Of a stretch of 36,991 nucleotides of DNA, positions 6,014-34,126 are shown one piece after another. Made by a program: the position numbers and the translations under genes. Numbering within the stretch: the first letter of the stretch is position 1; each line of letters starts with the position of its first letter. The notes beneath the pieces were generated by a model. That model had not been told where the DNA came from and searched no databases. It saw only the letters and a list, made by a program, of their open reading frames with translations. Source of the DNA: a bacterium (GTDB taxonomy: Bacteria > CLD3 > SB21); assembly GCA_019695335.1 (NCBI GenBank), contig JAIBAF010000036.1, positions 1 through 36,991 of the forward strand. Reading direction: 5' to 3'.

Positions 6014-6859
6014 TTACTTATTAAAAACTGCGGCAAGGCCGTAATTCATTGCTTCAGAAGGAACGGTAAAATGTCCTCCCTTATCAAAAACTCTTGTTGT
6101 CAATTTTAACTCGGAATAGTTTCTGCCCGTTATTTTTGTGATCATTGCTTTAACATTTTCAGGATGAAAATTTTCTCCTTCGTCTGATCCGAACGAAATA
6201 AACACATCAGCTTTTAATTCAGCGTTATTCTGGGAATACGTTTCTTCATCTTTGAATATTGCTTTGTTATCCCATGAAACTGTCGGACTGCTGATTATAT
6301 ATTTATTAAAAAGGCCGGTTTCTCTGAATAGAACATACGTTGCAAAAAGCCCGCCCATTGAATGACCTTCAATAACTCTGTTCTTTTTATCTGTTCTATA
6401 ATTTTTATCCACAAAAGGAATTAATTCTTTTTTTAAAAAGGCCAGAAACTGGCCGGCTTTTCCCGTTCTCTGATCCTCAGGAATTTGCGTCGGAGAATAA
6501 TCTCTCATCCTATTGTTTTTTCCTCCGGGACCGGAATTCAAGCTGCCATATCCAATTCCAACAATGATGATTTCCGGGATGTGTCCGCCCAATAAAAGAT
6601 GAGGTGTTACTCCGCAGGCAACAAAATAGGCTATATCACCATCCAGTACATAAAAAACGGGATAAGTTGAATTTGAAGAAGTGTAGCTTGCTGGAAGTTT
6701 AACATATAAGTTAAAAGTGTCCTTAACTTCTTTCGAGTTAAATAAATAATATTCTGCGTTTTGATTGACAAAAGAGTGTTCAACGGATATTTTTTGCGAT
6801 TGTGCGTTTAAATTCATCGCAACCATTAATGGGATTAAAAAAACCAGTTTTATTTTCAT
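6014..6859 (-). CDS. secreted alpha/beta hydrolase (esterase D / enterochelin-esterase-like)
   Basis: A predicted exported hydrolase of 281 residues. The N-terminus MKIKLVFLIPLMVAMNLNAQ is a typical signal peptide, which is why I start at 6859; an upstream ATG at 6886 would add nine residues in front of the signal. The fold call rests on the nucleophile elbow GHSMGG (Ser167), a candidate acid in GSDEGE (Asp226/Glu227) and a C-terminal His263 in KGGHF, plus YPVFYVLDGD near 66-75 as in the putative esterase family (PF00756). It sits in the permease operon between P4 and P3, so it is probably co-transcribed. Its base composition looks more AT-rich than the permeases around it, suggesting later insertion. 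The substrate is unknown; members of this family act on esters including siderophores, acyl-thioesters and sugar esters. Confidence 0.88.
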   Translation of the reverse strand: MKIKLVFLIPLMVAMNLNAQSQKISVEHSFVNQNAEYYLFNSKEVKDTFNLYVKLPASYTSSNSTYPVFYVLDGDIAYFVACGVTPHLLLGGHIPEIIIVGIGYGSLNSGPGGKNNRMRDYSPTQIPEDQRTGKAGQFLAFLKKELIPFVDKNYRTDKKNRVIEGHSMGGLFATYVLFRETGLFNKYIISSPTVSWDNKAIFKDEETYSQNNAELKADVFISFGSDEGENFHPENVKAMITKITGRNYSELKLTTRVFDKGGHFTVPSEAMNYGLAAVFNK

Positions 6860-6912
6860 TTTCTCTTTTAAGCGTTTGGCACTCATGGCAACACCGTGGC
6901 TGTTTTTAAATC

Positions 6913-14251: not shown

Positions 14252-15289
14252 TTACCATTCCGTCAATACATCAATGATTGCTTCGTTTTTCATTCCGGCA
14301 TCTTTCATTTTACGCACTTTGGATGCCGTGATTCCGTGAATACCCATCTGAACAATTTCGTCAGTCGTAAAACCAAGTTCTTTCATTTCACTGACAAAGC
14401 CAGGACGGAGTCCGTGAATGCCGAATTGCACAATATCTTCAACGGAAAAACCTTTGTCACTCATTTCACGGATGAAGCTTGAGCGAAGGCCATGAATGCC
14501 AAATTGTATGGCTTCATCGACGGAATAACTCATGGCTTTCATATCTTTGATAAAATCCGGTCGTACACCGTGAATGCCGATTTGAACAATTTCATCGGTA
14601 TCAAAGCCGAGCGCTTTGGCTTCCCGGATGTAAGCAGGTTTCAAACCATGGATCCCGTATTGAATTGTTTCATCGAGATTATCCGATAAGCCATCCATAT
14701 CTTTGATGAACGACGGTTTAATACCGTGAATCCCAAGTTGAACTATGGCGTCTACATCGCAGCCTTCATTTTTGGCATTTTCAATAAAATCCTTTTTGAT
14801 TCCATGAATGCCGAATTGAACGACTTCCGAAAGACGGTATCCTAAAGGAGCCAATGTTTCGACGTAATCCGTTTCTACATCGCAGACGGCCAAATCAAAA
14901 ATCTCACTGTCTTTGACGTTCTTGTAACCCCATTTGCTCAGATTCATCGCAAACGCCTCATCAGGAACAAATACGTACTTACCGGAAGCTTTACCCTTGC
15001 GGCATTCCCCGGTAAAATAAACCGTGCCCTGTTTAAAAGGCATGGTAAAAGAAATTTCACCGTCGTCGTGTCTGGCTTTGGATTTGTCAAGGCCTTTAAA
15101 ACGGCTGTAGGAAATCCCTTGAAACGTTGTCATAGACTCTCTTTGATCAGGCCGCCTCATGGTCAATGAAATTTCGCTGCCGCTGAAAACAGCTTCCCAA
15201 GTGCCTTGGAAACCGTTGTCAGCCGCATAGCCATGAGCAGCGGCCGTGATCAAAAGAGTAAGCAGGGAGAGAAATATTTTATAGCGCAT
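14252..15289 (-). CDS. secreted protein with eight 26-residue tandem repeats (GIHG repeats)
   Basis: A predicted exported protein of 345 residues with no assignable enzyme. Residues 1-22 form a signal peptide (KIFLSLLTLLITAAAHGYA). Residues about 25-110 look like a small beta-rich domain with alternating strands (GTWEAVF, ISLTMRR, GTVYFTG, GKYVFVP). Residues 134-341 are tandem repeats of exactly 26 residues. Seven copies carry GIHG at 160, 186, 212, 238, 264, 290 and 316, and a degenerate copy begins at 134. The repeat consensus is roughly GIHGxxxxFIxxMKxxGxxxDEIVQx, alternating two short helices. Similar hGVxxxFIxEL repeats occur in exported tails of BlaR1/M56-like proteins of Bacteroidetes and Acidobacteria; that link is from memory, not a search. 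Start ATG follows AAAGGA. It sits between P7 and P6 in the exporter operon, so it may be a periplasmic partner or cargo. Confidence 0.85.
   Translation of the reverse strand: MRYKIFLSLLTLLITAAAHGYAADNGFQGTWEAVFSGSEISLTMRRPDQRESMTTFQGISYSRFKGLDKSKARHDDGEISFTMPFKQGTVYFTGECRKGKASGKYVFVPDEAFAMNLSKWGYKNVKDSEIFDLAVCDVETDYVETLAPLGYRLSEVVQFGIHGIKKDFIENAKNEGCDVDAIVQLGIHGIKPSFIKDMDGLSDNLDETIQYGIHGLKPAYIREAKALGFDTDEIVQIGIHGVRPDFIKDMKAMSYSVDEAIQFGIHGLRSSFIREMSDKGFSVEDIVQFGIHGLRPGFVSEMKELGFTTDEIVQMGIHGITASKVRKMKDAGMKNEAIIDVLTEW
14267..14890 (-). repeat. 78-bp coding tandem repeat array (8 units)
   Basis: Eight consecutive 78-base units encode residues 134-341 of the repeat protein. A recurring string like TGAATGCCGAATTG is visible on the plus strand in several units, with base changes between copies. 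The period is constant with no insertion or deletion. The unit at the 5' end of the gene is the most degenerate. Confidence 0.85.
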
Positions 15290-25027: not shown

Positions 25028-25717
25028 TTAAATTTTTGCGGCTTCTTTCATATTTTCGGTCACAATGTGTCCGTCGAAAAGATGAATAACCCGTCCGGCG
25101 TATTCCGCGTGCGATGGCGAGTGCGTCACCATAACGATGGTCGTTCCGGCCTGATTCAGATCCGTTAAAAGCCGCATGACTTCTTCACCGTGCGCAGAAT
25201 CGAGATTACCGGTAGGTTCGTCAGCAAGGATGAGTTTGGGTTTGGCAACGACGGCACGCGATACAGCCACACGCTGTTGCTGACCGCCGGATAATTGTTG
25301 TGGAAAGTGATTGCGGCGATGGGCGATTTGCATTTGCTCCAGTGTTTCTTCGACGCGTTTTTTGCGGTCACCCGATGTCATACCAAGATAGAGTAAGGGC
25401 AATTCGACGTTTTCGAATACCGTCAATTCATCGATCAAATTGAAACTTTGGAAAACGAAACCAATATTGGCTTTGCGCATATTGGAACGCTGGCGTTCGG
25501 TGAATTTTGAAACTTCTTTGTCGAGAAAATAATATTCGCCGCTGCTCGGATTGTCCAATAACCCGATGACGTTGAGCAGAGTGGATTTACCGCAGCCTGA
25601 AGGTCCCATGATAGCCACAAATTCGGCGTTGTTGATTTCGAAATTAACGTTGTTCAACGCTGTTGTTTCCACTTCGTCCGTGGTGTACAGCTTTTGAAGG
25701 TTTCGTGCTTTGATCAT
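25028..25717 (-). CDS. ABC transporter ATP-binding protein, MacB/LolD family
   Basis: The 229-residue cytoplasmic ATPase that should power the permeases of this operon. It shows Walker A GPSGCGKST (38-46), Q-loop Gln90 (FVFQSFNL), signature LSGGQQQR (142-149), Walker B LILADE (162-167) followed by PTGNLD, and the switch histidine in VTHS (His199). The length and the FVFQSFNL and ADEPTGNLD strings are typical of the MacB/LolD/FtsE branch, which pairs with FtsX-fold permeases. ATG follows AAGGAA. It lies between the adaptor gene (50 bases upstream) and P10 (33 bases downstream). It is the only ABC ATPase gene in the window although there are ten permeases, so it may serve all of them, or others may be encoded elsewhere. 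Confidence 0.97.
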   Translation of the reverse strand: MIKARNLQKLYTTDEVETTALNNVNFEINNAEFVAIMGPSGCGKSTLLNVIGLLDNPSSGEYYFLDKEVSKFTERQRSNMRKANIGFVFQSFNLIDELTVFENVELPLLYLGMTSGDRKKRVEETLEQMQIAHRRNHFPQQLSGGQQQRVAVSRAVVAKPKLILADEPTGNLDSAHGEEVMRLLTDLNQAGTTIVMVTHSPSHAEYAGRVIHLFDGHIVTENMKEAAKI

Positions 25718-25767: not shown

Positions 25768-27024
25768 TTATTTTTGTTTCAGCATTAATTTATCTATATC
25801 GCCATAACTGTCGTACGACGATGTCACCACTTGTTCGCCCGGATACAACCCATCGATGACTTCAAAAACCTGGGGATTCTGCCGGCCGAGTTTGATCGGA
25901 CGCTTAATGGCAAAATCACCCGAAGGATCGACGACAAAAATCCATTGCCCGCCGGTCTTCTGATAAAATCCTCCGCGCGGTACCAGCACGGCTTCGGCAA
26001 GATCGCCGAGTTCCAGACGGATCTGCAACGTCTGGCCGCGGCGGATATCTTTGGGCGCTTCACCCTGGAATTCCATATCGACTTCAAACCGGCCGTTACT
26101 GACTTCCGGATAAACTTTTTTGATAATTAAAATATAAGTTTTGCCGGCGAAATCGAATTCGCCCGATTGTCCGATCTGTATGCGCGCGATATAATGTTCA
26201 TCAATCCCTGCCCGCACTTTAAATCCGTCGAGCACGTCGATTTGGCCTAAGCGGTCACCGGAACGTTTGGATTCACCAAGTTCAGCGTTACGTGAAGTTA
26301 ATTGTCCGTTGACAGGGGCACGAATCGTGAGGTTAGCGAGATTTTCTTTGATGACATTCAGGTTGGTTTGCATGTGCTGGATCGATGCTTCGAGCGATTG
26401 CATTTGCGTGGCGCGTAAAATGGAATCGGAATGCATGCTCTCGATCAAAAGATCCCGGCGATTAACGGCATACTGATATTCATCGCGCGCCTGTTCATAT
26501 TCCTGCTGCGACGTCAGGTTTTGAGGAAGCAAACCTTTTTGAACATCGTAGTTCCGTTTCCACCGTTGAATCTGATATTCCAAATCGATCAGATCGCCTT
26601 TATTGCGGATGCGGTTTTGTTCGAACGCCAAACGGGTGTTGCGCAAATTATTGATCTGTTCGAACAGCTGCGCTTCGCGAAACATCACATCCATCTGGAG
26701 GTTCGTGTTGGTCAGTTTGAGGATCTCTTCACCCTCTTTCACGATCGTACCTTCTTCGATGAATAATTTTTCAACGCGTCCGCCTTCCATCGCATCGAGA
26801 TAAATCGTCTTGATCGGAAGCACGTTACCCGTTACAGGAATAAATTCCTGGAAAGGACCTTTCGTGACCTTGGCCAAAGTAATTTTTTCAACTTCGACGT
26901 TCAGCTTTGACGACGTGTCGCCGAAAAGAAATGTGTAAAAAACAAAGATGAACAGAAGTCCGCCACCCCCAAAGATTGCAATCTTTTTCGGCGTCCAATT
27001 CTTTTTTTCAATTTTACGATCCAT
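25768..27024 (-). CDS. MacA/HlyD-like periplasmic adaptor (membrane fusion protein)
   Basis: A 418-residue adaptor that would bridge the inner-membrane transporter to an outer-membrane channel. One N-terminal anchor helix (about 14-34) follows a positive stretch (MDRKIEKKNWTPKK). Next come a split lipoyl domain (GGRVEKLFIEEGTIVKEGE, 81-99, and IRAPVNGQL, 234-242), an alpha-helical hairpin (about 110-230), and beta-barrel and membrane-proximal domains to the end. The hairpin tip at 154-178 (RWKRNYDVQKGLL, then LTSQQEYEQ) fits the conserved tip by which MacA/AcrA adaptors meet TolC. I start at ATG 27024; an in-frame TTG at 27063 would place 13 extra residues in what is probably the 5' leader. 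First gene of the operon, downstream of a putative sigma-54 promoter. No TolC gene is in view. Confidence 0.93.
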   Translation of the reverse strand: MDRKIEKKNWTPKKIAIFGGGGLLFIFVFYTFLFGDTSSKLNVEVEKITLAKVTKGPFQEFIPVTGNVLPIKTIYLDAMEGGRVEKLFIEEGTIVKEGEEILKLTNTNLQMDVMFREAQLFEQINNLRNTRLAFEQNRIRNKGDLIDLEYQIQRWKRNYDVQKGLLPQNLTSQQEYEQARDEYQYAVNRRDLLIESMHSDSILRATQMQSLEASIQHMQTNLNVIKENLANLTIRAPVNGQLTSRNAELGESKRSGDRLGQIDVLDGFKVRAGIDEHYIARIQIGQSGEFDFAGKTYILIIKKVYPEVSNGRFEVDMEFQGEAPKDIRRGQTLQIRLELGDLAEAVLVPRGGFYQKTGGQWIFVVDPSGDFAIKRPIKLGRQNPQVFEVIDGLYPGEQVVTSSYDSYGDIDKLMLKQK

Positions 27025-27076
27025 GTTTAATCCAATTCCATGTTTTGTAATGACTAAAGACAATTAATCCGGGCAA

Positions 27077-27092
27077 TGCAAACTCAATTCCC
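27077..27092 (-). promoter_or_regulatory. putative sigma-54 (-24/-12) promoter of the exporter operon
   Basis: On the minus strand the sequence GGGAATTGAGTTTGCA places GG and GC exactly ten bases apart and carries a complete TTGCA at the -12 element. The -24 half is weaker (GGGAAT against TGGCAC). The predicted start of transcription, near 27066, would leave a leader of about 42 bases before the adaptor ATG. An NtrC-type activator is encoded 4 kb away and palindromic sites lie upstream, which raises the likelihood. Confidence 0.6.
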
Positions 27093-27150
27093 ATGCCCAA
27101 AAAATGTGATTATTTATTAATGATTTAACACTACGAAGGTTTAGAAGAAA

Positions 27151-27167
27151 TGTTCGCTATCGCACGA
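27151..27167. promoter_or_regulatory. possible second, degenerate activator site
   Basis: TGTTCG-CTA-TCGCACGA resembles the neighbouring perfect palindrome; four of six outer arm positions are symmetric. Its centre is about 21 bases, two helical turns, from the centre of the stronger site. That is the usual spacing for paired dimers of NtrC-family activators. The call is weak alone and rests on the neighbour. Confidence 0.35.
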
Positions 27168-27171
27168 TGAG

Positions 27172-27187
27172 TGTCCGATTTCGGACA
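27172..27187. promoter_or_regulatory. perfect palindrome, candidate enhancer (UAS) for the NtrC-type regulator
   Basis: TGTCCGA-TT-TCGGACA has perfect 7-base arms. Its centre is about 95 bases upstream of the -24/-12 element and about 114 from the predicted transcription start, inside the usual range for sigma-54 enhancers. No run of T follows on either strand, so a terminator is unlikely. I noticed no other copy in the window. Confidence 0.6.
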
Positions 27188-27274: not shown

Positions 27275-30200
27275 CTAAGCCAGTTTTTCTAATTCCACGA
27301 TGGTGTCGTAATAATTTTTTTCCAATTCTTCGATCATAGAACGGATTTTAGAAAGATCCTTTTTGCGGCCGCATTGATCAATGTGTTCGCACAAATCGGC
27401 CATATACCGTGCGCCGATATTGCCGCAAGCGCCTTTCAGATTATGCGCAGCCATGGAAAGATTGGTTGTATCGTCAGCTTCTGCATGTTTTTTGATTTGA
27501 GCAATCAAGGACGGAGCTTGACGGAGAAACATGGCAATGATATCCTGGAAAAAACTCGGATCGTCTTCGGTAGCAAGGCTCTTCAATCCATCGATCGTAC
27601 GGGCATCGACAATCTTATTCGGGCGCTTGAGTTCGTGATGAGCCGGTTCAATTTTAGGCTTGATCGCGTGGCCCCATTTCGCCAGCGCAGCTGAAACTTC
27701 CTCCAGCCGGATCGGTTTACTGATGTAATCATCCATGCCCGCTTCAATGCACCGTTCGCGGTCGCCTTGCATCGCATTGGCCGTCATGGCGACGATTTTC
27801 GGACGGGTATCGGTCGGCCAGTTTTCGACAATATGACGCGTTGCTTCGAGTCCATCCATTTCCGGCATCTGCATGTCCATGAATACGAGATCGTAATGCT
27901 GCCGTTTGAGCGCGTCGACAGCTTCAATGCCGTTGCCTACCACGTCGGCAAGATACCCGATCTGCTTCAAAATCCGAAGCGCAACTTTCTGGTTGACGAC
28001 GTTGTCTTCGGCAACGAGAATCCGCAACGGACGCAGCTCGACGGTTTTGTCATCCGTGTGAACGGGTTGTTCGAGAGTTTCCGGAATGGCTTTGGCCCCG
28101 GCAAGCGTATTCATCAGCATATCAAAAAATTGCGATTGACGGATCGGTTTGGAAACATACGCTTGAAAAATCTCTTTGGCTTCTTTGACGCTGCGTTCGT
28201 TTTTTCCGAGCGACGTCAGCAAGATCATCGGCATTTGTTCTTCCGTGCGCAATTCGCGAATCGCTTTGCCCAACATGAGTCCGTCCATTTGCGGCATCTG
28301 CATATCAATGATGGCCAGATCAAACGATTCACGGTTTTTCAGCCAATCGACGGCTTCCTGACCGGAAGCCGTAGCTTTGGCAACAAGTCCCCAATGCTGG
28401 CATTGCGTTGACAAAATTTTGCGATTCGTCTCGTTGTCATCCACGATGAGTACCGATTTGCCGTCCAGTTCCGTCACACGACCGGCTTTACGGTCATCCG
28501 AAGATTTTTGCGCAACGGCTGTTTTGAGCGTAAATGAAAAAACCGATCCCTTGCCTTCGACGCTTTCCGCCCACATGCGCCCGCCCATGAGTTCGGATAA
28601 CCGTTTACAAATCGCAAGTCCCAATCCGGTACCGCCGTATTGACGCGTCGTGGATGAATCGACTTGTGAAAACGATTTGAAAAGGCGGTCCATCTTGTTG
28701 GTGGGAATGCCAATCCCCGTATCTTTCAGCGAAAATTGAAGCTCTTGGGCCGCGCCGGTTTGTTTGATTTTCTTAACATTGAGGAAAATTTCACCTTTGG
28801 GAGTAAACTTAACGGCGTTGCTGACAAGATTCGCCAGGATCTGCCGGACTCTTGTCACGTCGCCGACAACAAACGTCGGTACATCCGGTTCGATGAAATA
28901 AAGTAATTCTAATTGTTTTTCGGCAACCATTGACGCAAAAAGATCGAATGTATCTTCGATGCAACTCCGCAGATCGAAAGGCTGTTCTTCCAATTCCATC
29001 TTGCCGGATTCGATCTTTGAGAAATCCAGAATGTCATTAATGATCGTGAGAAGCGTTTCGCCGCTGACCCGGATGGTTTCGACGAAACTGCGCTGTTCCG
29101 CGCTCAATTCCGTTTCCATCAGCAATCCGGTCATACCGATCACGCCGTTCATCGGCGTACGGATTTCGTGGCTCATGTTCGCTAAAAATTCCGACTTGAG
29201 CCGGGCCGCAGCCAAAGCAGCTTCGCGGGCGGAAATCAATTCGCGGTCAAGATGTTTCCGTTCGGTGATGTCGCGCACGATCGCCAACACTTCGTCTACG
29301 CCGCTGACAACGATCCGGGCCTCGTGATCGCGTACACGGCCGTCCACTTCGATCTGATATTCGAAAACCTGCATTTCAGCGGTTTCAAGCGCTTTTTCGA
29401 CGTATTGCATCGTCTTTTCAGCCGCGCTGAGAATCTGGCCGCTCGTGACCACCACGCCGAAATCTTTTGGAACGCGGAAATCGAACATGATGCCGTCATG
29501 GCGCAGACGGTACATCAAATCGGGAATAGCGTTGAGCAGTGCCTGCGTTTTGGCTTCGCTCTTGCGCAAAGCTTCTTCGGTCTGTTTACGTTCGTTAACT
29601 TCTTTTTGTAAAGCTTTGGTGCGCTCGTCGATACGTTTTTCGAGATTGCGGTTGATCTCTTCAAGTTGTTTGTACGCTACCTCAAGATTGTCCACCATCT
29701 CGTTGAACGCACTGGCCAGCTGGGCAACTTCATCGTTATAATACGTCGGGGCGCGGTGAGAAAGATCGCCGTTGGAAACTTTTTCAACTGTTGCGACCAT
29801 TTGCCCGAGGTGACTCGTTACGGCCGTACTGATCGTAAAAACGGCGATCATACCGATAACGAAAATCAACATACTAACAGTGGTAATCGTCGTACGGCTC
29901 TGATCGATTTCCGCGCGGATACTCTCCAAAGAAATACCGACAAACACACGTCCGATTTTTTTCCCGTCTTTATAAACGACGGTCATACCTTGGTACAATT
30001 TTCCGTCGTTAGAAATTATGTTATGATGCGTAGGATGATCAAAATTGTATTGATTGGCGAGTTCGCGGTTAAAAATTCCCAGCGCTTTACCGGTATTATT
30101 GATTATGATCATGTAAACAAGGTCTTCGTTCTGACGGGCTACCTGGATGGTTGAATAAATAACGCTGGTATCCGTAGTCTGGATCGATCCGGAAAGGCTG

Positions 30201-30376
30201 AACGCTACCATTTCACCGATGCTCTGCGCCTTGGCTTTGATAGAACGAATCGCCTGATCTTCAAGGCGCGTCGGAAAGAAAACAAAAATAAAAACCGAAA
30301 TCACGCCGATGATCAGGGTAACCAAGAGCGAAAGCTTGGTCCGAATTGTGGAAAGTCCTCTACGGGAAAATGCCAT
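27275..30376 (-). CDS. BarA-like hybrid sensor histidine kinase (HAMP-PAS-HisKA-HATPase-REC-REC-HPt)
   Basis: A membrane-bound phosphorelay kinase of 1033 residues. Helix about 13-35; extracytoplasmic sensor about 36-160; helix about 163-186; HAMP about 187-240; coiled coil about 235-275; PAS about 276-375; dimerisation domain with His403 in SHEIRTP; ATPase domain with N-box ([11 protein letters not shown], Asn520), DTGIGI (552-557) and GGTGLGLAI (581-589); first receiver with phospho-acceptor Asp691 ([11 protein letters not shown]); second receiver with Asp834 ([11 protein letters not shown]); C-terminal HPt with His978 in [11 protein letters not shown]. All catalytic residues are present, so a four-step relay within one chain is possible. 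The output partner is not adjacent. It lies just upstream of the exporter operon on the same strand, 250 bases from the adaptor, and is divergent from the CoA-binding gene. It may be unrelated to the exporter. Confidence 0.95.
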
Positions 30377-30560: not shown

Positions 30561-30956
30561 ATGAAAGATATTACGGAATTGCTCAAAGAACCGGACGTAT
30601 CGATCGCCGTTGTTGGCGCCAATGATCACCCGGAAAAATACGGCTCTGTAATCTACCGCGATTTGAAACGAAAAGGATTTAAACTTTTTCCGGTTAATCC
30701 GACGCGTCCGTCCGTCGACGGCGATAAAGCTTACAAAAACTTGACCGACATTCCCGAAAAACCGACCATCATTAATTTTGTCACGCCGCCGGCAGCAACT
30801 CTGAAAGTCCTGAAAGAATGCCTTGAAAAAGGATTGATGAACGTGTGGATCCAACCCGGCGCTGAAGATCCCGATGTGCTCCGATTCGTGCAGGAAAATC
30901 ATTTCAATTATCTCGCGAATGCGTGTATCATGGTCGAGAGTAGATTGAGCCACTGA
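30561..30956 (+). CDS. small CoA-binding domain protein (YccU-like)
   Basis: A cytoplasmic 131-residue protein made only of a Rossmann-like CoA-binding domain. The nucleotide-binding turn is IAVVGANDHPEKYG (15-28), followed by FKLFPVNP (42-49) and NFVTPP (72-77), all in the order seen in the CoA_binding_2 family (YccU and relatives, about 130-140 residues). The ATG has AAAGG seven bases upstream. It is the first gene of a plus-strand series leading to the four-helix-bundle gene and the response regulator. The 184 bases before it, shared with the divergent hybrid kinase, hold AT-rich sequence but no promoter I can call firmly. The family function is poorly defined. There is no evident functional link to the exporter. 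Confidence 0.88.
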   Translation: MKDITELLKEPDVSIAVVGANDHPEKYGSVIYRDLKRKGFKLFPVNPTRPSVDGDKAYKNLTDIPEKPTIINFVTPPAATLKVLKECLEKGLMNVWIQPGAEDPDVLRFVQENHFNYLANACIMVESRLSH

Positions 30957-31386: not shown

Positions 31387-32763
31387 ATGCTTCCAAAATC
31401 CACCAAAATTCTTGTCATCGATGACGACGAAGACGTTCTTTTAGCCGCAAGGCTTTTTCTTAAACAACATGTCAGCGTTGTACAGACTGAAAAAAATCCC
31501 GAGCAAATTCCTGTCCTGCTTAAGAATGAAAATTACGACGTCATTCTGCTCGATATGAATTTTACGCGCGACGTGAGCAGCGGTTATGAAGGATTTTTCT
31601 GGCTGAATAAAATTTTAGAGCTCGATCCGCGAGCCGTTGTAATTCTGATCACGGCTTATGGCGACGTAGAAATGGCCGTTCGCGCGATCAAAGAAGGCGC
31701 AATGGATTTTGTTCTGAAACCGTGGCAAAACGAAAAACTGCTCGCTACGTTATCGGCCGCCATGAATCTGCGTCAATCACGCCTCGAGGCGGAAAACCTC
31801 CGCTCGCGGCAGGAACTTCTTTCCGCCGAACTCGACCAGCCTTTTCACGATATTATCGGGCGGGCGGGCGCTATGCTGCAGGTTTTCTCCACCATTCAGA
31901 AAGTCGCCAAAACAGACGCTAATGTACTGATCCTTGGCGAAAACGGAACTGGTAAAGAGCTGATCGCACGTGCGCTTCATCGGCAGTCATTACGCGCCAA
32001 AGAAGTCTTTATTACGGTCGACATGGGTGCGATTAGCGAAACATTGTTTGAAAGTGAACTTTTCGGTCATGTAAAAGGCGCTTTTACCGACGCCAAAGAA
32101 GACCGCGCGGGACGATTTGAAATTGCATCGGGAGGAACGTTATTTCTAGACGAAATCGGCAATCTCTCTTTGCCGATGCAGGCGAAACTGTTGACCGTTT
32201 TGCAAAACAGGGAAGTAACGCGCATCGGATCGAACAAATCATTTCCAATTGATATCCGGTTGATATGCGCGACGAATTTGCCGATCCACGCTATGGTTGG
32301 TGAAAAAAAATTCCGACAGGATTTGTTGTATCGTATCAATACGGTCGAAATCGCTTTACCGCCTCTGCGCGATCGTGCCGACGATCTGCCGGCGCTGGCC
32401 GAACATTTTATCGCCCTGTATTGTAAAAAATACCAAAAATCCTCAAAAAGTTTGCACGTGGCCGCGCTGAAAAAGCTTGAAAAATACTCGTGGCCGGGCA
32501 ATGTTCGTGAATTGCAACATACCATCGAACGCGCCGTGATCATGAGCGAATCACCGCTATTACAGCAAGACGATTTCCTGCTGACGGCTTCGCATGGCAA
32601 AGCCGAAGGTTTGATGATCGACGACTACAATTTAGAAGAAATTGAAAAAGCGCTGATTCGGAAAGCGCTGAGTAAACACGGCGGTAATGTCAGTCATGCG
32701 GCCAAAGACCTCGGACTGACGCGCACGTCGCTTTACCGCAGGCTTGAAAAATATGGTTTATAA
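31387..32763 (+). CDS. NtrC-family sigma-54-dependent response regulator
   Basis: A 458-residue transcriptional activator. The receiver domain is about 6-120, with acidic pocket Asp12-Asp14, phospho-acceptor Asp56 (ILLDMN), Thr89 and Lys111. The AAA+ domain, about 155-385, has Walker A GENGTGK (184-190), the sigma-54 contact loop as GAFTDA (231-236) instead of GAFTGA, Walker B TLFLDE (251-256) and WPGNVREL (369-376). A Fis-type helix-turn-helix lies at about 415-456 (NVSHAAKDLGLTRTSLYRRL). All hallmarks of a complete NtrC-type activator are present. It overlaps the following kinase gene by 11 bases, so the two are co-translated. The likely target is the sigma-54 promoter and palindromes upstream of the exporter operon; this is inference. 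The Shine-Dalgarno is poor. Confidence 0.96.
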   Translation: MLPKSTKILVIDDDEDVLLAARLFLKQHVSVVQTEKNPEQIPVLLKNENYDVILLDMNFTRDVSSGYEGFFWLNKILELDPRAVVILITAYGDVEMAVRAIKEGAMDFVLKPWQNEKLLATLSAAMNLRQSRLEAENLRSRQELLSAELDQPFHDIIGRAGAMLQVFSTIQKVAKTDANVLILGENGTGKELIARALHRQSLRAKEVFITVDMGAISETLFESELFGHVKGAFTDAKEDRAGRFEIASGGTLFLDEIGNLSLPMQAKLLTVLQNREVTRIGSNKSFPIDIRLICATNLPIHAMVGEKKFRQDLLYRINTVEIALPPLRDRADDLPALAEHFIALYCKKYQKSSKSLHVAALKKLEKYSWPGNVRELQHTIERAVIMSESPLLQQDDFLLTASHGKAEGLMIDDYNLEEIEKALIRKALSKHGGNVSHAAKDLGLTRTSLYRRLEKYGL

Positions 32764-34126
32764 CCGCTTCCGCATTCTCTGCACGATCCGCGTCATCGTT
32801 CTGGCGTTGACAACGCATGTGTTTTTTTACCTATTGTCTCAGACAACGTTATACGTCACGACCGCTTTGATTGCTCTGACGATCGTGTATCAAATCTATG
32901 CGCTCATTATTTTTGTAGAAAAAACCAACCGAGACCTGTCGCGGTTTCTCGAATCCATACGCCACGAGGATTTTTCCCAGACATTTACCGGTTCAGGCTG
33001 GGGCTCGTCGTTTGACGAACTCAAATCCGCTTTTTCACAGATCATTATGGATTTCAGGAAAGCACGGACGGAGCGTGAGGAGAGTTTCCGTTACTTGCAA
33101 ATCGTTGTGCAGCACATACCCGTCGGTCTTATTGCGTTTACGCCTGATGGCGATATCGAACTGATCAATAACGCCGCACGCCGCTTATTCAAAGTCGCTG
33201 TTTCGCCGGATCAACCTTCATTACGAAACATCAAAACGCTCGAAACGGTGAATAAATCTCTTGTAAATGTTTTTTTTCAATTGAAACCCGGTCAACGTAC
33301 GTTGGTTAAATTCGATGACGGCACGGAATGGGTACAGCTGGTTATTTCGGCAACGGAATTTAAATTGCGTGAACAAAAATTCATGCTCGTGTCGCTCCAG
33401 AACATTCAGACCGAATTGGAAGAAAAGGAAATGGAAGCGTGGCAAAATCTGATCCGCGTACTGACGCATGAGATCATGAATTCCGTCACGCCGATTTCAT
33501 CCCTCGCGTCGACGGTCAACGATCTGGTTTCACATTCATTCAGCCGCGTACACTCCGGCGAAAAAGTCGATCAGGATTCGATGCAGGATATCCATGGCGC
33601 GCTCGGAACGATTCAAAAGCGCAGCGAAGGATTGATTCACTTCGTCGAGGCGTACCGAAATCTGACTAAAATTCCGGCGCCGAATTTTCGCATTTTCGCT
33701 GTGAAAGAATTGTTTCACCGTGCGGAACAACTACTGCGTCCGAAGCTGACTGAAAATAAAATCCAATTTCAATCGACGATCGAACCACTGACGCTGGAAA
33801 TCACGGCCGATCTGGAATTGGTAGAGCAAGTTCTGATCAATTTATTGATCAACGCAATTCAGGCCACGCAGAAACAGCTCAAACGGCAAATTAAACTATC
33901 GGCGCGTCTCGACGAGCGCGGACATGTGCTGGTCCAAGTTGCTGACAATGGTCCCGGTATTATCGACGAAGCAATGGATAAAATTTTTATTCCGTTTTTC
34001 ACTACGAAAGAGGAGGGTTCAGGCATTGGTTTGGCGCTTTCACGGCAAGTCATGCGCCTGCATCGCGGCACGATCGGCGTGCAATCACGCCCGAATATCG
34101 AAACGGTTTTTACGCTGAGGTTTTAG
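32753..34126 (+). CDS. NtrY-like sensor histidine kinase, partner of the NtrC-type regulator
   Basis: A 457-residue membrane kinase. Two helices (about 9-29 and 33-55) are separated by only a few residues, so there is practically no periplasmic sensor. A HAMP-like linker (about 57-105) and a PAS domain follow (about 112-215, IPVGLIAFTPDGDIELIN). The histidine box is LTHEIMNSVTPI with His239, the form seen in NtrY-type kinases. The ATPase domain has Asn367 (LINLLINAIQ), DNGPG (398-402), FFTTK (415-419) and GSGIGLAL (422-429). I start at ATG 32753; an in-frame TTG nine bases earlier is possible. The overlap with the regulator gene marks them as a pair. Signals probably come from within the membrane or from a partner protein, possibly the exporter. 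Confidence 0.95.
   Translation: MVYNRFRILCTIRVIVLALTTHVFFYLLSQTTLYVTTALIALTIVYQIYALIIFVEKTNRDLSRFLESIRHEDFSQTFTGSGWGSSFDELKSAFSQIIMDFRKARTEREESFRYLQIVVQHIPVGLIAFTPDGDIELINNAARRLFKVAVSPDQPSLRNIKTLETVNKSLVNVFFQLKPGQRTLVKFDDGTEWVQLVISATEFKLREQKFMLVSLQNIQTELEEKEMEAWQNLIRVLTHEIMNSVTPISSLASTVNDLVSHSFSRVHSGEKVDQDSMQDIHGALGTIQKRSEGLIHFVEAYRNLTKIPAPNFRIFAVKELFHRAEQLLRPKLTENKIQFQSTIEPLTLEITADLELVEQVLINLLINAIQATQKQLKRQIKLSARLDERGHVLVQVADNGPGIIDEAMDKIFIPFFTTKEEGSGIGLALSRQVMRLHRGTIGVQSRPNIETVFTLRF

Follow-up and report, generated by a model that had tools for sequence, protein, structure and literature searches.

The HlyD-ABC-FtsX exporter operon in the window (the whole stretch of 36,991 nucleotides analysed here) is, with high probability, controlled by a two-component, sigma-54-dependent on-switch in which the response regulator encoded at 31387-32763 acts at paired sites at 27151-27187. 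This reading is based on the presence of the elements, their rarity in the genome, their conservation across phyla with a fixed geometry, a symmetric base change in one relative, the presence of rpoN, the domains of the regulator, and its association with the element. Binding of the regulator, its phosphorylation and the position of the transcription start are predictions from the sequence, the inducing signal would be envelope-related, and the exporter is probably off until the two-component signal arrives. The parts of the switch are classical, and by sequence comparison the same predicted switch, with its regulator gene, is present ahead of the corresponding exporter in dozens of bacteria from distant lineages.

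The exporter genes are transcribed from the minus strand. The first gene of the operon (25768-27024) encodes a HlyD/MacA-type periplasmic adaptor (Pfam HlyD_3, HlyD_D23), for which the ATG at 27024 is preferred over a TTG at 27063; the N-terminus, MDRKIEKK, is conserved in orthologues. An ABC ATPase (25028-25717; ABC_tran) follows, a close relative of which adjoins the adaptor gene in almost every collected locus with enough sequence on that side, and then nine MacB_PCD/FtsX permeases of 788-805 amino acids, all in the same direction (1173-24994) and all nine recognized by Pfam. The HlyD-family adaptor, ABC ATPase and MacB_PCD/FtsX permease that define a MacAB-type system are thus all assigned by Pfam, and no outer-membrane TolC partner was identified within the window. 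We note that only one adaptor gene and one ATPase gene precede the nine permeases, and that the permease array also contains an esterase-like gene (6014-6886) and a 345-residue open reading frame without family assignment (14252-15289).

Between the end of the hybrid kinase gene (27275) and the adaptor ATG (27024), the minus strand reads TGTCCGAAATCGGACA, CGTGCGATAGCGAACA and TTGGGCATGGGAATTGAGTTTGCATTGCCC in that order. The first of these is the primary enhancer palindrome at 27172-27187, which is TGTCCGATTTCGGACA in the orientation of the window and TGTCCGAAATCGGACA when read from 27187 to 27172 on the minus strand; it is assigned to neither strand, matches the TGT-N10-ACA operator form (TGT-CCGATTTCGG-ACA), and is conserved in position in five genomes of the family. 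A second, weaker copy, CGTGCGATAGCGAACA (27151-27166, minus strand, read 27166-27151), lies 21 bp away, centre to centre, on the promoter side, and this offset is kept in orthologues. A sequence-only reading of this DNA had described a perfect palindrome, TGTCCGA-TT-TCGGACA, about 95 bases upstream and a degenerate copy two helical turns away; the letters and the distance are correct and the copy is present as described. The palindrome centre is at about -107 relative to the predicted start and that of the weaker copy at about -86; the phasing of these predicted sites, their conservation and their position ahead of the promoter are characteristic of NtrC-family enhancers.

The 3.76 Mb genome contains just two copies of the strict dyad, TGTCCGN4CGGACA, and none of a reversed control. 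The sequence-only reading had proposed a genome search for this motif with -24/-12 elements downstream: the window copy is accompanied by such an element, and the second copy is located inside a 1,052-residue ribonucleotide-reductase-like open reading frame (named from its sequence). The window site is the only place in this genome where dyad and promoter occur together. The two other TGTNCGN4CGNACA sites, one of which is the copy in the ribonucleotide-reductase-like frame, lack a downstream promoter, and a wider regulon in this genome was set aside; palindrome searches that allowed one mismatch returned mostly unrelated single sites.

The promoter segment, TTGGGCATGGGAATTGAGTTTGCATTGCCC, contains two overlapping GG-N10-G registers, GGGCATGGGAATTGAG and GGGAATTGAGTTTGCA. 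The most likely -24/-12 promoter is GGGCATGGGAATTGAG (GGGCAT-N5-TTGA; minus strand, 27098-27083), which is in the conserved register and has GG at -24, G at -12 and the N10 spacing, in a genome that encodes RpoN; with +1 assumed to be 12 bases past the -12 position, transcription would start at about 27072. The GG-N10-GC element with TTGCA that the sequence-only reading had placed about 53 bases before the ATG is GGGAATTGAGTTTGCA (minus strand, 27092-27077, 53 bases ahead of 27024); its letters and distance are right, but the register is poorly conserved and probably not the functional one, the conserved register lying 6 bp upstream. Use of GGGAATTGAGTTTGCA would move the start some 6 bp farther downstream, to about 27066, and it does have the canonical TTGCA with GC at -12 and is retained in a same-genus relative. 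However, it is broken in G003, G004 and G006, three family genomes that retain the upstream register at its 95 bp distance, and the latter register is therefore preferred; GGGAATTGAGTTTGCA is complete in only two of 68 orthologous regions (the window and the same-genus relative), and we consider it unlikely to be functional.

The preferred promoter is imperfect, with GGGCAT in place of TGGCAC and TTGA in place of TTGC. The A that replaces the C of the -12 GC is also found in 17 of 68 relatives, and TTGA, TTGG and TTGT are all common among orthologues. Loose -24/-12 matches are at chance level across the window (268 found, 259 expected), so that a single GG-N10-GC match is weak by itself and becomes significant because it is conserved. 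The canonical TGGCAYN5TTGCW has zero matches in the window's genome, fewer than the control, and the strict consensus is therefore of no use as a predictor in this genome. No sigma-70-like promoter was scored in the region.

Comparison of the orthologous loci in five family genomes (G001, G003, G004, G006 and the window) shows the dyad, second copy and promoter at matching positions in all four relatives, with exactly 95 bp from the dyad centre to the -12 of the upstream register in all five. This register is shared by G001, G003 (TGGCACAAGAATTGAC), G004 and G006 (GGGCATAGGTATTGTT), and the second copy in G004 and G006 is TGAACGATAACGAACA. The G003 dyad, TGTACG-GATT-CGTACA, is altered in both half-sites in such a way that the symmetry is kept (TGTACG-N4-CGTACA), a two-sided change that is expected of the target of a dimer. 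A CoA-binding-domain protein (CoA_binding_2; 30561-30956, plus strand, in the window) is encoded before the regulator or near the operator in several family genomes, but the more distant loci yielded none.

In the genus of the window, a gene for a hybrid histidine kinase with an Hpt domain (27275-30376, minus strand; assigned by Pfam) separates the exporter from the regulator. As the gene order in L035, L036 and L037 shows, G004 and G006 lack it at this place; there the exporter directly neighbours the regulator side in divergent orientation, and the element is retained on the exporter side. The hybrid kinase is therefore not required by the switch, and its gene seems to have been inserted between two divergent units that were adjacent earlier. 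A terminator-like match was scored at 27172-27187, and the palindrome could in principle be a transcription terminator or mRNA hairpin belonging to this upstream hybrid kinase gene. The match is on the plus strand, though, where no gene ends at the palindrome, and on the minus strand no run of T follows it; moreover, the palindrome is kept in G004 and G006 despite the missing kinase gene, and its distance to the promoter is fixed across phyla. A role as terminator or hairpin is thus very improbable, and we treat the palindrome as an enhancer.

The broader distribution was examined using four adaptor orthologues as queries, which yielded 80 loci. These are labelled as Bacteroidota (Cytophagales, Balneolaceae and Rhodothermales), Ignavibacteriales, KSB1, Calditrichia, Aminicenantes, Zixiibacteriota, Latescibacterota, Gemmatimonadota, Acidobacteriota and others, where the taxonomy is that of the record titles, mostly metagenome bins, a few of which look doubtful. 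The best dyad and -24/-12 pair upstream of each adaptor was scored, with a threshold of at least 17 of 19. The paired TGTNCG-N4-CGNACA and TGGCAY-N5-TTG elements are present in 68 of 82 orthologous upstream regions and in none of 1,640 dinucleotide shuffles, a contrast that is not a probability because the shuffles keep shared ancestry, although the loci nonetheless span many phyla. The distance from dyad to -12 is 93-99 bp in 54 of the 68, and 61 have a second copy at an offset of 20-22 bp. The sequence-only reading had required the palindrome upstream of orthologous operons, and there it is found; with rpoN also present, two of the outcomes that would have refuted that reading did not occur, and its interpretation is supported once the promoter is moved by 6 bp. 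Chance coincidence, which might be entertained from the chance-level frequency of single loose -24/-12 matches in the window, is refuted by the joint arrangement in these 68 regions against none of the shuffles, and we regard its probability as negligible.

The letters at -12 among the 68 are GG in 24, GC in 19, GA in 17 and GT in 8, and a rule demanding GC at -12, which is present in just 19, therefore misses most promoters of the group. The Cytophagales and their relatives (L164-L199) mostly have a -12 box of TTGGC and not TTGC, reflecting either a lineage-specific -12 or a spacing one base longer. In L149, three identical TGTACGCCAGCGAACA sites are arranged in exact 21-bp steps upstream of 282, the Acidobacteriota orthologue.

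A sigma-54 holoenzyme stays closed at its promoter until an enhancer-bound AAA+ activator acts on it. The genome encodes rpoN, on which the sequence-only reading depended (sigma-54 DNA-binding domain, E 3.7e-59), and the NtrC-type activator that it had inferred has a candidate in the intact response regulator at 31387-32763 (plus strand; Pfam Response_reg, Sigma54_activat, HTH_8), which comprises a receiver, a sigma-54 AAA+ domain with a GAFTDA loop, and a Fis-type HTH. In an alignment with eight homologues the HTH and the receiver residues D12, D13, D56, T89 and K111 are conserved, D56 is invariant and GAFTDA is present. The protein thus has the phospho-acceptor aspartate, the AAA+ GAFT(G/D)A motif and the Fis-type HTH of an NtrC-family response regulator.

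In the window, the regulator gene is 4.3 kb away with other genes between. Among loci with enough flanking sequence to judge, a close relative of the regulator adjoins the adaptor in 57 of 69, and the element (here taken as a score of at least 16) is present in 55 of the 57 loci with the regulator compared to five of the 12 without it (Fisher p = 2e-5). Several loci lack both, mostly in Balneolaceae, and serve as natural negative controls. The promoter and enhancers could be real and yet answer physiologically to a different NtrC-family protein, given at least 27 proteins of the activator family in this genome, the five orthologous loci in which the element is present and the regulator is missing from the fetched flank, and the lack of direct adjacency between regulator and exporter in the window. 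This is decidedly unlikely in view of the strong association of regulator and element, the divergently adjacent regulator orthologue (57-95% identity) beside the adaptor in most loci, and the single promoter-bearing site in the window's genome; the protein at 31387-32763 is the preferred activator. We note that six loci with adaptor orthologues (L133, L159, L165, L174, L176 and L178), from Balneolaceae and relatives and including one Neomarinimicrobiota bin, have neither regulator nor operator, a pattern of natural loss or rewiring.

The partner histidine kinase is encoded at 32744-34126 (plus strand; HATPase_c, H-box LTHEIMNS). Hydropathy predicts two transmembrane helices at approximately residues 9-32 and 36-60 with almost no loop between them, and six orthologues have a similar N-terminal hydropathy and topology; by hydropathy, it therefore has the short-loop, two-helix form of the intramembrane-sensing (Bce/Lia-like) kinases. 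With almost no part exposed outside, the kinase may detect its signal inside the membrane or through another protein, for example the transporter, which we offer as speculation. In Bce/Lia-type systems intramembrane-sensing kinases adjoin FtsX-type transporters, and the output is an OmpR- or NarL-type regulator. The window kinase is similar in having two helices with almost no extracytoplasmic loop and in its proximity to a MacB/FtsX-superfamily transporter, but differs in that its output would be a sigma-54 activator.

The most likely course of events is that the kinase (32744-34126) senses the signal and phosphorylates the regulator (31387-32763), dimers of which would bind the tandem dyads at 27151-27187, at about -107 and -86. 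The phosphorylated regulator would then oligomerize on the dyad pair, the DNA between enhancer and promoter would loop, and the GAFTDA loop of the AAA+ domain would remodel sigma-54 polymerase at GGGCAT-N5-TTGA (27098-27083). The promoter would thereby open and the adaptor-ATPase-permease operon be transcribed, giving rise to the exporter, and would stay closed when the activator is absent.

Among known systems, the NtrC glnAp2 class has a response regulator with AAA+ and Fis-type HTH domains and two dyads on one helix face about 100 bp upstream. The window shares the regulator domains and the two dyad sites about 100 bp upstream on one helix face, but departs from this class in dyad sequence, inter-site spacing, signal and target. 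NifA sites are TGT-N10-ACA and are usually separated from the start by 100 bp or more on its upstream side (PMC2820453), and the window dyad is literally TGT-N10-ACA, some 107 bp ahead of the predicted start. The window regulator, however, has a receiver, whereas NifA-type activators have a GAF sensor and no receiver; the window sites form a tandem pair, 20-22 bp apart and with CG...CG as their inner letters, and control would be exerted on an exporter and not on nif genes. Because of the receiver domain and the exporter target, the system is not filed as a NifA regulon. Sigma-54 promoters ahead of FtsX-like ABC permeases (COG0577) were predicted for Bacteroidia and other groups in a 2025 survey that claims the first such link (PMC12316311); in the available part of that survey no operator, activator or adaptor operon is named, whereas we propose an operator with its cognate regulator, and in more phyla. 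In Flavobacterium psychrophilum, sigma-54 promoters are linked to envelope stress and exported proteins (PMC9723704), which fits with an exporter switch. A search of open-licence papers for sigma-54 together with HlyD, MacB or FtsX and response regulators turned up no paper on this pairing of operator and regulator.

We suggest tentatively, and with rather less than even confidence, that the kinase, sigma-54 regulator, TGTNCG-N4-CGNACA pair and HlyD-ABC-FtsX exporter constitute an ancient envelope-response module of Bacteroidota and many related or candidate phyla, in which a kinase without an external sensor domain would monitor the condition of the membrane or the exporter itself, and in which the operator in some lineages also controls additional permeases and small secreted proteins. 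These bacteria encode many sigma-54 activators (at least 27 in this genome), and to our knowledge the operators and targets of such proteins are mostly unknown outside Pseudomonadota. In the present case an activator can be matched to both an operator and a target, with strong comparative support from many phyla. The match also suggests why surveys see some FtsX permeases as sigma-54-controlled, and cultured relatives in which it could be tested include Shiella, Algoriphagus, Fulvivirga, Pontibacter and Fodinibius.

Elsewhere among the genomes checked, a dyad accompanied by a promoter nearly always lies ahead of an adaptor or FtsX-like permease gene, the exceptions being a G003 match before an unrelated open reading frame and a Pontibacter match before one of 54 residues. 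Where other genomes have several permeases with promoters of their own, the window seems to have a single array of nine in their place. In Shiella aurantiaca (G061), each of the eight TGTNCGN4CGNACA dyads in the genome has a -24/-12 element behind it, and the genes that come next encode the adaptor, an ABC ATPase, three FtsX permeases and small, probably secreted proteins. Two of the latter (L216 and L236) are related proteins of 105 residues, each encoded behind a dyad and -24/-12 element, and these may act in the exporter response, either as its substrates or as effectors.
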